Source of the DNA: Armatimonadota bacterium
GTDB taxonomy: Bacteria; Armatimonadota; UBA5829; DSUL01
Direction: 5' to 3'
DNA: 64,000 nucleotides
Assembly (NCBI GenBank): GCA_025998755.1
Contig: AP024674.1
Span: 1,664,162-1,728,161 of the forward strand
Positions 20,808 to 26,038 of the stretch are shown here, piece after piece. The position numbers were made by a program, and so were the translations under genes. The notes below the pieces were generated by a model, which made no database searches, was not told the DNA's origin, and saw only the letters and a list, made by a program, of their open reading frames with translations. How positions within the stretch are numbered: position 1 is the stretch's first letter; the number at the start of each line of letters is the position of its first letter.

Positions 20808-21521
20808 ATGGTTTGTTCTAACAAGTGTCGCGGTGGGTTCACGCTCATCGAGCTGCTGGTGGTGATCGCCATCATCGCCATCCTCGCCGCCATCCTCTTT
20901 CCGGTCTTTGCCGGAGCTCGCGAGCGTGCCCGATCCACAAAGTGCCTGAACAACCTGAAGCAGCTGGCGCTGGCCTGCTGCCAGTATGCTGACGACAACG
21001 GGGGCAAGCTTCCCGACGCCCGAATCTCCTACAATGCCAGGCAGTACAGCGACTGGGTGGGCACGCAGATGGTGGGCGGATGGGTGGATGTAACCCGCGG
21101 GCAGATCTGGCCCTACGTCAAGTCAGAGGAGATCTACCGGTGCCCCACCGACAAGCGCAAGCCCGCCACCCAGATCACATCCCTTCCCGCCGGGAAGACT
21201 CAGAAGGACTACCCTCTGAGCTACAGCATGAACTTCAAGTTCGATGACCTGGACAAATACCAGAAGCTGGACAGTATTGCAAACGACCCGACGCTTGTCC
21301 TCCTGCTGATCCATGAATCGCGGGAACGCATCAACGACGGCGATTTCCGCTGGGAGTCACCCCACGATATCCCGTCCGACGTGCACTATGAGGGCACCAA
21401 TGTGGCCTATCTGGATGGACACGCGGCCTACGGAAAGCAGTCGCGCCTGATAGAGGAGATGCGAAAGGGCAACTGGGATCCCGGCCACACGCCCGGGACT
21501 CCGTTCAACCCACCCTGGTGA
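20808..21521 (+). CDS. Prepilin-type N-cleavage/H-X9-DG domain protein
   Basis: A 237-residue protein with a type IV prepilin N-terminus. A short basic leader ends at Gly10, followed by [16 protein letters not shown] with Glu at position +5 of the mature chain, so a prepilin peptidase should cut between Gly10 and Phe11. The region after it ([17 protein letters not shown]) is the Armatimonadota-type continuation. The globular part ends in [14 protein letters not shown], preceded by His, fitting the H-X9-DG motif of DUF1559-like pseudopilins. Such proteins are highly multiplied in Armatimonadota and Planctomycetota and their function is unclear. The tandem GspF/PilC genes 3 kb away could belong to the same machinery. 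Confidence 0.88.
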
Positions 21522-22800: not shown

Positions 22801-22829
22801 GAAAAAGAGCTCTCCCGCGGGAGAGCTCT
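22801..22829 (-). terminator. Rho-independent terminator of the first PEP-CTERM gene
   Basis: A perfect 24-nt palindrome (22806-22829, arms AGAGCTCTCCCG/CGGGAGAGCTCT) followed on the minus strand by a TTTTTC run. This is the clearest intrinsic terminator in the window. Confidence 0.88.
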
Positions 22830-22853
22830 CCAGCCTGACAAGACGAAACCGCC

Positions 22854-23624
22854 TCACACCGTCCTGCGCCGCAGGACGACTGCGGCAAAACCGGCCAGGC
22901 CCGTGGCGAGCGCCGCCAGTCCACCCGGCTCGGGGATGACCACGAAAACGCCCGTCCCGCTCACCTGATCGTTTGCGGTGATGTTGAAGCTGAAGGCGGT
23001 CTGGATGGTGGTCACCGTCCCAACGACACTGCCATAACCCATCGATGGCATCGCATCGCTGGCCACCGCGGAAGCATATGGGGCAGCGGTCAGCGGCCCG
23101 GTGATCAGATTCGCATACACGCCCACGTTGCTGACCGCCTCGAAGAACTTCGTCCCCCCCGCGAAAAGGGGCGAGGCTACGGCTCCATTTCCATCGCTAT
23201 CCGTCACGGTTATGGCCGCGCTGGCCACCGCCGGAGGATTCACAAGCGGAGCGAAGCCGACGATCGCCGACGTGATGGTATAGCTGACAGTGGTGTTGGG
23301 AGCGATGATCGCAAACCCGATGGACACAACCGGGTCGGAGTTGACGTAAGCCGCCAGGTCGGCCACAGTGCCCAGCAGAACCTGAGAGGAATCGTCCGAG
23401 ATAATCTGCACCGGATCCTGAAGGTTCCAGTCGATCAGGGGCCCTGCTAAAGGATTGCGGTAGAACTCCAGCTTGCCGTAATGCTGACCGGCATCCCTTG
23501 CCTCGATTACGAACAACGCCGCAGAAATGGAGCCTCCGTCCGCTCTGGCCACGCCTCCTTGACAGGTGGCTGTGAACAGCAAGGCGGCCATAACCAGTAA
23601 AATCGGAAACCTGTGCGCTGTCAT
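22854..23624 (-). CDS. PEP-CTERM sorting-domain protein (paralog 1)
   Basis: A 256-residue secreted protein. The signal peptide (FPILLVMAALLFTATC) starts at the ATG at 23624, chosen for the strong GAAGGAGAGG upstream. The C-terminus is VIPEPGG, a hydrophobic segment and RRRTV, the PEP-CTERM signal expected to be cut by an exosortase. The mature part has a central ITVTDSDGNGA motif, a following NVGVYANLITG, and GTVTTIQTAFSFNIT, all shared with the next two genes. The Asp/Asn/Gly-rich motif resembles a calcium loop; this is inference. No exosortase gene is in the window. Function is unknown. Confidence 0.86.
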   Translation of the reverse strand: MTAHRFPILLVMAALLFTATCQGGVARADGGSISAALFVIEARDAGQHYGKLEFYRNPLAGPLIDWNLQDPVQIISDDSSQVLLGTVADLAAYVNSDPVVSIGFAIIAPNTTVSYTITSAIVGFAPLVNPPAVASAAITVTDSDGNGAVASPLFAGGTKFFEAVSNVGVYANLITGPLTAAPYASAVASDAMPSMGYGSVVGTVTTIQTAFSFNITANDQVSGTGVFVVIPEPGGLAALATGLAGFAAVVLRRRTV

Positions 23625-23680
23625 TTTCTCCTCTCCTTCTCGAAAGACAGACGTTCCGATACTCAACCTTGCCCTGGGTT

Positions 23681-23709
23681 ATTGTGCTCCTGCGGAACAC
23701 CCCTGTCAA
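23681..23709 (-). promoter_or_regulatory. Candidate promoter of PEP-CTERM paralog 1
   Basis: TTGACA (23709-23704) and CACAAT (23686-23681) with a 17-nt spacer, about 57 nt before the start codon. Confidence 0.4.
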
Positions 23710-23809
23710 GAGTACGGGCTAATCCCCTCCTCCAAATCCGGTATTTCTACCTGCGCTGCATTCGGCCACAGGGGATTCCCGAACTCGGGAGACCCCTGGC
23801 ATATGGAAA

Positions 23810-23842
23810 GGACCTTCCCGGTGTGAATACCCGGAAAGGTCC
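23810..23842 (-). terminator. Terminator of PEP-CTERM paralog 2
   Basis: A 12-bp stem with one wobble pair (GGACCTTTCCGG / CCGGGAAGGTCC) about 27 nt past the stop, followed on the minus strand by a short TTT. The genes of the trio are therefore probably transcribed separately. Confidence 0.6.
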
Positions 23843-23868
23843 CAAAAGATCCTGAAGCAGCCGATTTG

Positions 23869-24612
23869 TCAGGCTTTGCGGCGCACAACCAGCCCCGCGA
23901 ACCCAGCCAGAGCGCTTCCCAGAGCCAGAAGGCTGCCGGGCTCCGGAATAACGGTGAAGCTACTCGTTCCGCTCGCACCGTCAAACGGAGTCAGCGAGAA
24001 GCTGAACTGGCTGCTGATGCTGGACACTGTGCCGGAGATCGTCCCCGCCAGATTCTCGTTCGCGGTATTGGACTGGAACATACCAGCGCTAACGCCGTTC
24101 ACCAGCAGGGCGTAGTTCCCCAGGTTGGTGTCTGCGCTGTAGACCTTGCCACCGGCAAGAAGTCCGGTGAGCGTCGCCCCGTTGCCGGAATTGTCCGTGA
24201 CCGTGACCGCAGCCGTGGCGGTTGCCACCGGATTCACCAGCGGGGTGAAGACCACCGTACTGGACGTGAATGTGAAGGTGGTAATCGTGTTGCCCGCCGT
24301 CACGCTGAAGTTGAGCAGCACGACCGGGTCAACATCATAGAACACGTTGACGCTGTCCAGCGAGGCGATCAGATCGCCGTTGGATCTCAGTTCGATCACA
24401 CCCGGAGCTTTCCAGGATCCCTTCCCATTCACGAGCCCCGGGAACTGGTCCCAGCCAAGCTGCCACTGGGCAGACTTTCCAGCAGCAACCGCCGTGATGG
24501 TCAGCAGTGGCCCGGAAAGCGTGCCATCGATTCCCCCTCCGGCATATGCGGCGCTCGCAATTGTGGCTGCAGCCACAGCGATCGCGAATACAGCTTTCAT
24601 CCCGAATCTCAT
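23869..24612 (-). CDS. PEP-CTERM sorting-domain protein (paralog 2)
   Basis: A 247-residue secreted protein. The signal peptide is AVFAIAVAAATIASAAYA, and the C-terminal sorting signal is VIPEPGSLLALGSALAGFAG followed by VVRRKA. It shares with its neighbours the block VTVTDNSGNGATLTGLLAGG, NLGNYALLVNG and GTVSSISSQFSFSLTPFDGA. The ATG at 24612 follows AAAGGAGAG. Its promoter (TTGACA-18-GACAAT) and terminator are its own. Function is unknown; PEP-CTERM proteins are usually surface or matrix proteins of biofilm-forming bacteria. Confidence 0.87.
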   Translation of the reverse strand: MRFGMKAVFAIAVAAATIASAAYAGGGIDGTLSGPLLTITAVAAGKSAQWQLGWDQFPGLVNGKGSWKAPGVIELRSNGDLIASLDSVNVFYDVDPVVLLNFSVTAGNTITTFTFTSSTVVFTPLVNPVATATAAVTVTDNSGNGATLTGLLAGGKVYSADTNLGNYALLVNGVSAGMFQSNTANENLAGTISGTVSSISSQFSFSLTPFDGASGTSSFTVIPEPGSLLALGSALAGFAGLVVRRKA

Positions 24613-24683
24613 TTCTGCTCTCCTTTACCCGGCCGCCGTTCGAGGCTCGCGCGACGACCGCGCTCTTGCTCTCTCAGAACATC

Positions 24684-24713
24684 ATTGTCCGGCACAACAG
24701 CCCTTTCTGTCAA
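24684..24713 (-). promoter_or_regulatory. Candidate promoter of PEP-CTERM paralog 2
   Basis: TTGACA (24713-24708) and GACAAT (24689-24684) with an 18-nt spacer, about 72 nt before the start codon. Confidence 0.4.
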
Positions 24714-24767
24714 GGGGCAAACACCGCGCCGGCACAGCCTAACTTGTTGATAAACCCTCTTTGTGGA

Positions 24768-25559
24768 TTAGGCCCTGGCCTTTCGCCGCAGTCCTGCGAT
24801 GCCAGCCAGCCCCAGAGCGGCCAAGGTCATCGAAGCGGGCTCGGGAATCGGCGGTCCGACGTAGAAGACGCTCGAGCCGCTGGCCGCATCGTGGGCGCTC
24901 AGCAGGAACGTAAAGGACGTCTGCATGCTGTTGACCGTGCCCGGAAGGGTGTAGAAGCCGATTACCGGCAAGGTTTCGCTGGCAGTCGCCGACTGATTCG
25001 GCAGGGCCGTAATGTTCGGCACCAGGTGGGCATACACTCCCAGGTTCGTCTTGGCCTGATACGCCAACGAATTAGCGACATAGCCGCCGACGAGATAGGC
25101 TCCATCGCCGTTGGTGTCCGTGATGGTGATGCCCGCACTCGCCACTGCGTCAGGGAAGGCGATACCCGGGAAGCTGAGCGTCACGGACGAGATGGAGAAT
25201 ACCGTGTCAACGTCCAGTGCCTTTACGTTGAACGTGAACCCGATCACCGGATCCGGATTGATGGCCGTGGACAGGCTCTCGATGATGCCCAAGGCCTGGT
25301 TAGGGTTCTCGGCACTGTAGATGGCCACCGGCTGGGCAAGGCTCCAGGTCCCCCACCCTGCGTCGGGGTCGAAGACAAGTTCAGGCAGGAAGAAAGTGGA
25401 ACCGGAACCGGCTTGGCTAGTGGCGCTAACCTCGATGACAAGACCAAAGGGGTCGTCCAGGAGACCCGGACCTGCTGCGACGGAGCCGGCGGCCAAAGCA
25501 GCCACTAGGACTACCCCCGCCAGCACGGCTCCTATTCTCGATTTCAGACTGCTGCTCAT
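24768..25559 (-). CDS. PEP-CTERM sorting-domain protein (paralog 3)
   Basis: A 263-residue secreted protein. The signal peptide (RIGAVLAGVVLVAALAAGS) begins at the ATG at 25559, chosen for AAAGGATCC upstream. The sorting signal is PIPEPASMTLAALGLAGIAG followed by LRRKARA. The body shares ITITDTNGDGAYLVGGYV, NLGVYAHLVPN and GTVNSMQTSFTFLLSAHDAA with the other two, and a preceding DPVIGF block matched by DPVVSIGF in paralog 1 and DPVVLLNF in paralog 2. This is the first copy upstream of the trio and lies next to the rRNA operon. Function is unknown. Confidence 0.87.
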   Translation of the reverse strand: MSSSLKSRIGAVLAGVVLVAALAAGSVAAGPGLLDDPFGLVIEVSATSQAGSGSTFFLPELVFDPDAGWGTWSLAQPVAIYSAENPNQALGIIESLSTAINPDPVIGFTFNVKALDVDTVFSISSVTLSFPGIAFPDAVASAGITITDTNGDGAYLVGGYVANSLAYQAKTNLGVYAHLVPNITALPNQSATASETLPVIGFYTLPGTVNSMQTSFTFLLSAHDAASGSSVFYVGPPIPEPASMTLAALGLAGIAGLRRKARA

Positions 25560-25767: not shown

Positions 25768-25797
25768 ATTTTCTCAGACCACCAACGCCCCCGTCAA
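25768..25797 (-). promoter_or_regulatory. Candidate promoter of PEP-CTERM paralog 3
   Basis: TTGACG (25797-25792) and GAAAAT (25773-25768) with an 18-nt spacer. The 320-bp gap between this gene and the rRNA terminator holds nothing else I can identify. Confidence 0.3.
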
Positions 25798-25879
25798 GTT
25801 GTCAGGGCAAATTCCGGTATTATTACGGGGTTCCCGGACCTCTGCGAACTGGTTGCATGATTGGTCCCTTACAGCAACA

Positions 25880-25906
25880 AGGCCCCCGGATGCTGTCCGG
25901 AGGCCT
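25880..25906 (-). terminator. rRNA operon terminator
   Basis: An 11-bp stem (AGGCCTCCGGA / TCCGGGGGCCT, one wobble) with loop CAGCA, 15 nt past the 5S gene, followed on the minus strand by TTGTTGCTG. Confidence 0.75.
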
Positions 25907-25920
25907 GTTCAGGAACAAAT

Positions 25921-26038
25921 TCCCGGCATCGACCTATTCTCCCACACCGTCGCCAGTGCAGTACCTTCGGCGCTGGAGGGCTTAACTACCGTGTTCGGGA
26001 TGGGAACGGGTGGATCCCCTCCGCCATGGACACCGGGA
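25921..26038 (-). rRNA. rrf: 5S ribosomal RNA
   Basis: About 118 nt. It contains the conserved 5S core CCGTTCCCATCCCGAACACG and GTTAAGCCC on the minus strand, and its ends pair as TCCCGGTG / GCCGGGA. Ends were set by this terminal helix. Confidence 0.95.

Follow-up and report, generated by a model that had tools for sequence, protein, structure and literature searches.

PEP-CTERM genes of Proteobacteria are associated with a sigma54 promoter connected to PrsK/PrsR and with a 17-nt motif whose last letters are TTTACA (PMC1569441). One PEP-CTERM gene has been shown to depend on sigma54 (PMC9850573), and a PrsR-type regulator has been shown to bind PEP-CTERM targets (PMC3333781). Haft et al. (2006) found a PEP-CTERM control element in Proteobacteria only and stated that others were still to be discovered (PMC1569441); our literature search returned no such element for the phylum studied here. 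The 64,000-nucleotide (64-kb) stretch of Armatimonadota DNA that we analysed, hereafter the window, carries three tandem genes, A, B and C. Their products resemble proteins of the PEP-CTERM/exosortase sorting system (PF07589, TIGR02595; PF09721/TIGR02602) in a signal-peptide-like start, a PEP motif, a hydrophobic stretch and a basic end, and the genome encodes exosortases, but their mature core belongs to no named family. We think it likely that these genes encode exosortase-sorted, beta-rich surface proteins within a second PEP-CTERM regulon, one of sigma70 type that is governed by a putative activator. The cis element on which this proposal turns, an operator box common to A and C, was missed in the earlier note on this DNA, and we regard it as the most interesting part of the locus.

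That note had described three minus-strand genes for secreted PEP-CTERM paralogs, and the open reading frames and Smith-Waterman comparisons bear it out:

25559-24768, minus strand: gene A, secreted PEP-CTERM protein of 263 aa (open reading frame, signal-peptide-like start)
24612-23869, minus strand: gene B, paralog of 247 aa (open reading frame)
23624-22854, minus strand: gene C, paralog of 256 aa (open reading frame)
24780..24851, minus strand: PEP-CTERM tail of A, residues 237-260 (PF07589 match)
23878..23949, minus strand: PEP-CTERM tail of B, residues 222-245 (PF07589 match)
22866..22937, minus strand: PEP-CTERM tail of C, residues 230-253 (PF07589/TIGR02595 match)

Each gene has an ATG start and a Shine-Dalgarno sequence, and the N-termini, judged by eye and by a crude rule, are basic and hydrophobic. 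Pairwise identity is about 36-37 %, and core-only Smith-Waterman scores of 230-289 stand against shuffled means of 42-43 (maximum 77 in 300 shuffles), which is 5-7 times the shuffled mean; the ordered sequence blocks reported previously recur in all three proteins. Curated cut-offs for the tails are passed by A and B with PF07589 (28.0 and 21.2 bits, cut-off 20.7) and by B and C with TIGR02595 (17.0 bits for C, cut-off 16), the PF07589 score of C (16.1 bits) being under the cut-off. The triplet sits behind an rRNA operon, the 5S gene of which lies at 25921-26037, and a prepilin-like protein is encoded nearby on the plus strand (20808-21521).

The window holds no exosortase, as had been noted, and a search of the whole genome located three outside it (PF09721 matches at 406496, 700144 and 1801264, 178-198 bits). 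All three pass the general TIGR02602 cut-off and none passes a subtype cut-off, and they adjoin Wza/Wzc-like EPS export genes, identified by reading translations. About 43 PEP-CTERM tails in the genome score above the Pfam cut-off. As judged directly from the sequence, then, A, B and C are true paralogs with PEP-CTERM tails in a genome that possesses exosortases. They would be exported, beta-rich proteins with a C-terminal sorting signal, and one of the three exosortases most likely cuts them and sorts them to the surface or to an exopolysaccharide matrix, where they may have a role.

The view that these proteins form a small surface-protein family without a known name gained support, since no Pfam, NCBIfam or PDB name emerged once the tails were removed. 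The tail-less cores of A, B and C returned zero matches in NCBIfam, and the core of C returned zero in a PDB sequence search. Full-length proteins match solely the tail models and some weak families below cut-off: Big_9 (PF17963, cut-off 23.6 bits) is matched by B only, partially and at 17.3 bits, and EDSAP-1 (NF041538, curated score 100 bits) at 28.6 bits with the tail and not at all without it. The full-length proteins bear a weak likeness to the EDSAP-1 and THxN (NF038125) PEP-CTERM families, but at scores far under the cut-offs, and the tail-less cores match neither. A core profile search of the phylum, proposed in the earlier note, yielded 14 members in 8 of 291 genomes, and a second round with a wider alignment gave the identical set. 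Distant homologs were absent from plasmids and viral contigs, and a scan of named genomes returned the sister species alone. Columns conserved in the family include DPxV, TD, a phenylalanine of the last core strand and, ahead of the tail, a D-x-x-SGT block; beyond the sister species, no conserved gene neighbours accompany them. In two genomes (G231, L073 789-3548; G232, L074 3071-7404), the members adjoin phage-like genes, including one for a terminase-like protein, as read from translations.

The sister species (G218; public contig CALCJH010000099.1) carries the triplet in identical order behind its rRNA operon, plus a fourth copy. Orthologs are 92 % (A), 92 % (B) and 86 % (C) identical, and the ortholog pairs have dN of about 0.05-0.09 and dS of about 0.46-0.64 (dN/dS about 0.1), values that indicate purifying selection. 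Local duplication had been suggested as the origin of the triplet. A recent event of this kind is uncertain: with orthologs 85-92 % identical and paralogs about 36 %, the triplication is older than the species split, and the family tree does not resolve A, B and C as an exclusive group.

The resemblance of the core to a calcium loop, also raised previously, is a more delicate matter. The loops in question are as follows, from sequence and alignments:

25101..25118, minus strand: DTNGDG loop of A, DxDxDG-like
24178..24195, minus strand: DNSGNG loop of B
23184..23201, minus strand: DSDGNG loop of C

The pattern D-x-[DNS]-x-[DN]-G occupies the same column in A, B, C, the fourth paralog and two further members (G108 and G137b), and its retention among close members makes calcium binding possible. 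However, the pattern is broken in the distant members G137a, G225 and G240 and only partly kept in G231/G232, loop position 12 lacks an acidic residue, and the structure models are too weak for placing calcium-loop side chains. AlphaFold2, given a shallow alignment of six rows, modelled C at pLDDT 36; when the same sequences were led by B, one of five models was usable, an all-beta fold with pLDDT 68 and pTM 0.71. Because Foldseek returned no match to this B-led model at E <= 0.001, with only scattered hits to carbohydrate-binding-module-like and viral beta folds (TM about 0.24), no fold is claimed for the core. That the core is a calcium-binding module with a DxDxDG loop, and that folding or matrix adhesion depends on calcium, is a conceivable but rather doubtful reading, and it is compatible with our favored explanation of the locus.

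The signals that delimit transcription in and around the triplet are these:

25876..25909, minus strand: rRNA-operon hairpin resembling a terminator, immediately before A (kept in the sister genome)
25768..25797, minus strand: sigma70-type promoter of A, TTGACG-N18-GAAAAT (kept in the sister genome)
24684..24713, minus strand: weak candidate promoter of B, TTGACA-N18-GACAAT, box-free (not kept in the sister genome)
23809..23843, minus strand: terminator after B, a hairpin (-27.1 kcal/mol for the folded 66 nt, z -3.35)
23681..23709, minus strand: sigma70-type promoter of C, TTGACA-N17-CACAAT (kept in the sister genome)
22804..22831, minus strand: terminator after C, a 12-pair stem and T-run (present in the sister genome)

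The earlier note had assigned each gene its own promoter and two of them a terminator, and had taken the three to be independently expressed. The terminators after B and C are indeed real hairpins, the one after B being kept in the sister genome with paired changes, and consensus promoter hexamers do precede every gene. Nevertheless, conservation extends to the promoters of A and C only. That of B decays in the sister species (TTGACA to TCGACG, GACAAT to GACAAA) and was not found there by a promoter scan, and the gap between A and B contains no terminator. Since, in addition, A and C have a common upstream element that is kept in the sister species, independent expression is unsupported, and we judge it quite unlikely that the three genes run from promoters of their own with no common control. 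The simplest reading would be two transcription units, C and a probably co-transcribed A-B.

The common element emerged when upstream DNA was aligned with that of the sister species, where GTAnnAATACCGGA is kept before A and C just upstream of the conserved TTGAC promoter. It is an imperfect palindrome, CnGGTA-N4-TACCnG, with a T-tract on the promoter side, and it does not occur before B:

25810..25829, minus strand: operator box of A, CCCGTAATAATACCGGAATT (leave-out matrix 26.4 bits; kept in the sister genome)
23734..23753, minus strand: operator box of C, CAGGTAGAAATACCGGATTT (leave-out matrix 23.5 bits; kept in the sister genome)

Searched for as an exact pattern, the element occurs three times in the whole genome: before A, before C and before one other PEP-CTERM gene. 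As the third match also preceded a PEP-CTERM gene, 47 such genes were collected for EM. With the last 30 nt of upstream DNA masked (unmasked runs returned the ribosome-binding site), EM recovered CCGGTA..atTACCGGaTTt at a log-likelihood of 181, compared with 69-83 for six dinucleotide-shuffled sets. A leave-out matrix, trained without the window's two sites and scanned over the 64 kb, ranked the boxes of A and C first and second; if the opposite-strand reading of box A is set aside, the best remaining match scored 12.2 bits. Approximately 20 of the 47 PEP-CTERM genes are preceded by the box, and about half, B included, have no clear one.

Across this genome there are about 27 distinct box sites, most of them before PEP-CTERM genes. 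The sites that had no part in training include two of particular interest. One, with a promoter at 24-bp spacing, precedes a PEP-CTERM gene (3222775) that had been left unmodelled, and the other stands at the start of one exosortase operon (698574), hinting that the sorting enzyme also belongs to the PEP-CTERM regulon; at the latter site, no phased promoter was recognised. This second box (G000:C1:698574-698595, L136) opens an operon for a sugar transferase, an exosortase and EPS export. Three sites are without a sensible target (2705204, 212933, which is inside a gene, and 2912658).

Phased spacing between site and promoter is a mark of class I activators, a familiar example being E. coli CRP at -61.5/-71.5/-82.5. 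The box described here likewise is palindromic and lies upstream of -35 in steps of one helical turn, but it has a recognition sequence other than that of CRP. Measured from the palindrome centre to -35, distances peak at 24 bp (19 cases), 34-35 (7), 45-46 (4), 57 (2) and 67-68 (2), a period of 10.75-11 bp (P < 1/5000 against uniform spacing). In this genome, a promoter occurs at offset 10-14 in 7 of 20 genes compared with 0.04 in shuffles. The spacings are 24 bp for A and 36 bp for C, and both are kept in the sister species. Among sites in minus orientation, with the T-tract away from the promoter, distances to -35 have their maxima at 8, 18 and 29 bp, shifted from the main series by about half a helical turn (loci among L143-L232).

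A short palindrome followed by T's resembles a weak terminator, and one site (3109805) does lie behind a gene end, so the box could in principle be no operator but a short hairpin that acts as an intrinsic terminator or attenuator for the transcript from upstream. Its arms, however, show no compensatory pairing in 18 sites of this genome or 30 foreign sites, pairing no better than independent columns, which marks it as a DNA site and led us to reject the RNA hairpin. Moreover, folding of many 16-mers yields -3 kcal/mol or weaker, B and C have real terminators that are much stronger and stand apart from the boxes, and a terminator would have no need of 10.75-11 bp phasing to -35. We find such a terminator very hard to credit. 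A repressor operator common to surface-protein genes could also be palindromic, and the minus-orientation sites at other offsets could be taken in its favor. Most sites, however, keep a constant helical phase upstream of -35 and stay clear of the promoter itself, an arrangement typical of class I activation, and repression consequently appears unlikely.

We thus return to activation. A putative activator, probably dimeric, would bind the CnGGTA-N4-TACCnG box and switch on each unit, A-B and C, from a site that lies one helical turn or several upstream of a sigma70-type -35, which is class I geometry. The DNA itself shows the box and how it is enriched, conserved and phased, and from these observations both dimer binding and activation rather than repression appear probable. 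The identical box would serve an extensive PEP-CTERM regulon, both here and in related organisms, and the triplet would by this token belong to a programme that co-ordinates the surface or matrix, so that three tandem proteins with a nameless core would become members of a defined surface programme. The box also offers a testable handle, both as a 20-bp bait for the activator and as the source of a target-gene list across many genomes.

Like the proteobacterial motif, the box is a cis element common to many single-gene units with long upstream regions. It differs from the 17-nt motif, as compared with the described 3' end TTTACA, and a sigma70-type -35 follows it at about 24, 35 or 46 bp, unlike the proteobacterial element with its sigma54 -24/-12 promoter. 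The sigma54 arrangement is nonetheless present in the genome: a perfect -24/-12 element (TGGCAC-N5-TTGCA) precedes four PEP-CTERM genes that carry no strong palindromic box (tails at G000:C1 2269585, 2419100, 2559407 and 2996208), and a PrsR-like NtrC regulator is encoded at 937590-938735 (404 bits, under the 502.6 cut-off). No -24(GG)/-12(GC) promoter matches upstream of A, B or C, and the box genes, one weak overlap excepted, lack the element. With sigma54 elements at four genes and, apart from that overlap, none at the box genes, the two circuits appear to coexist. On balance, we favor the view that PEP-CTERM proteins of this phylum are under two circuits, the sigma54 one and a new one with a class I box and putative activator that covers dozens of proteins and probably one exosortase operon.

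The box model, trained on this genome only, was then applied to eight relatives, where it found 140 sites. At least 30 of these are upstream of listed PEP-CTERM genes (0.41 expected), with eight contributed by the sister genome. When 104 unique sites were re-read with their neighbours, 44 proved to lie before PEP-CTERM genes and a further 43 before starts that a crude rule classed as signal-peptide-like; for these counts, gene starts and signal peptides were called heuristically. A box stands before PEP-CTERM genes in this genome (G000) and in G218, G219, G220, G225, G229, G231, G232, G241 and G150. The box precedes the fourth paralog of the sister species and the family member of G225; at the family members of G231, G232, G108, G137 and G240, a strong box is missing. 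One genome (G150) has four distinct sites, three of them before PEP-CTERM genes, and two genomes that have at most one PEP-CTERM match contain zero or one site. G108, G137 and G060 possess PEP-CTERM genes and gave no box match at the threshold. Most sites of G225 and G229 do not precede any of the listed PF07589 genes, and the regulon there may extend to a broader secretome programme, or the tails may be of an unmodelled kind; the box could reveal sorted surface proteins that tail models miss. Many of the boxes in these two genomes (loci among L143-L232) stand before genes for secreted proteins in which no PEP-CTERM tail was recognised.
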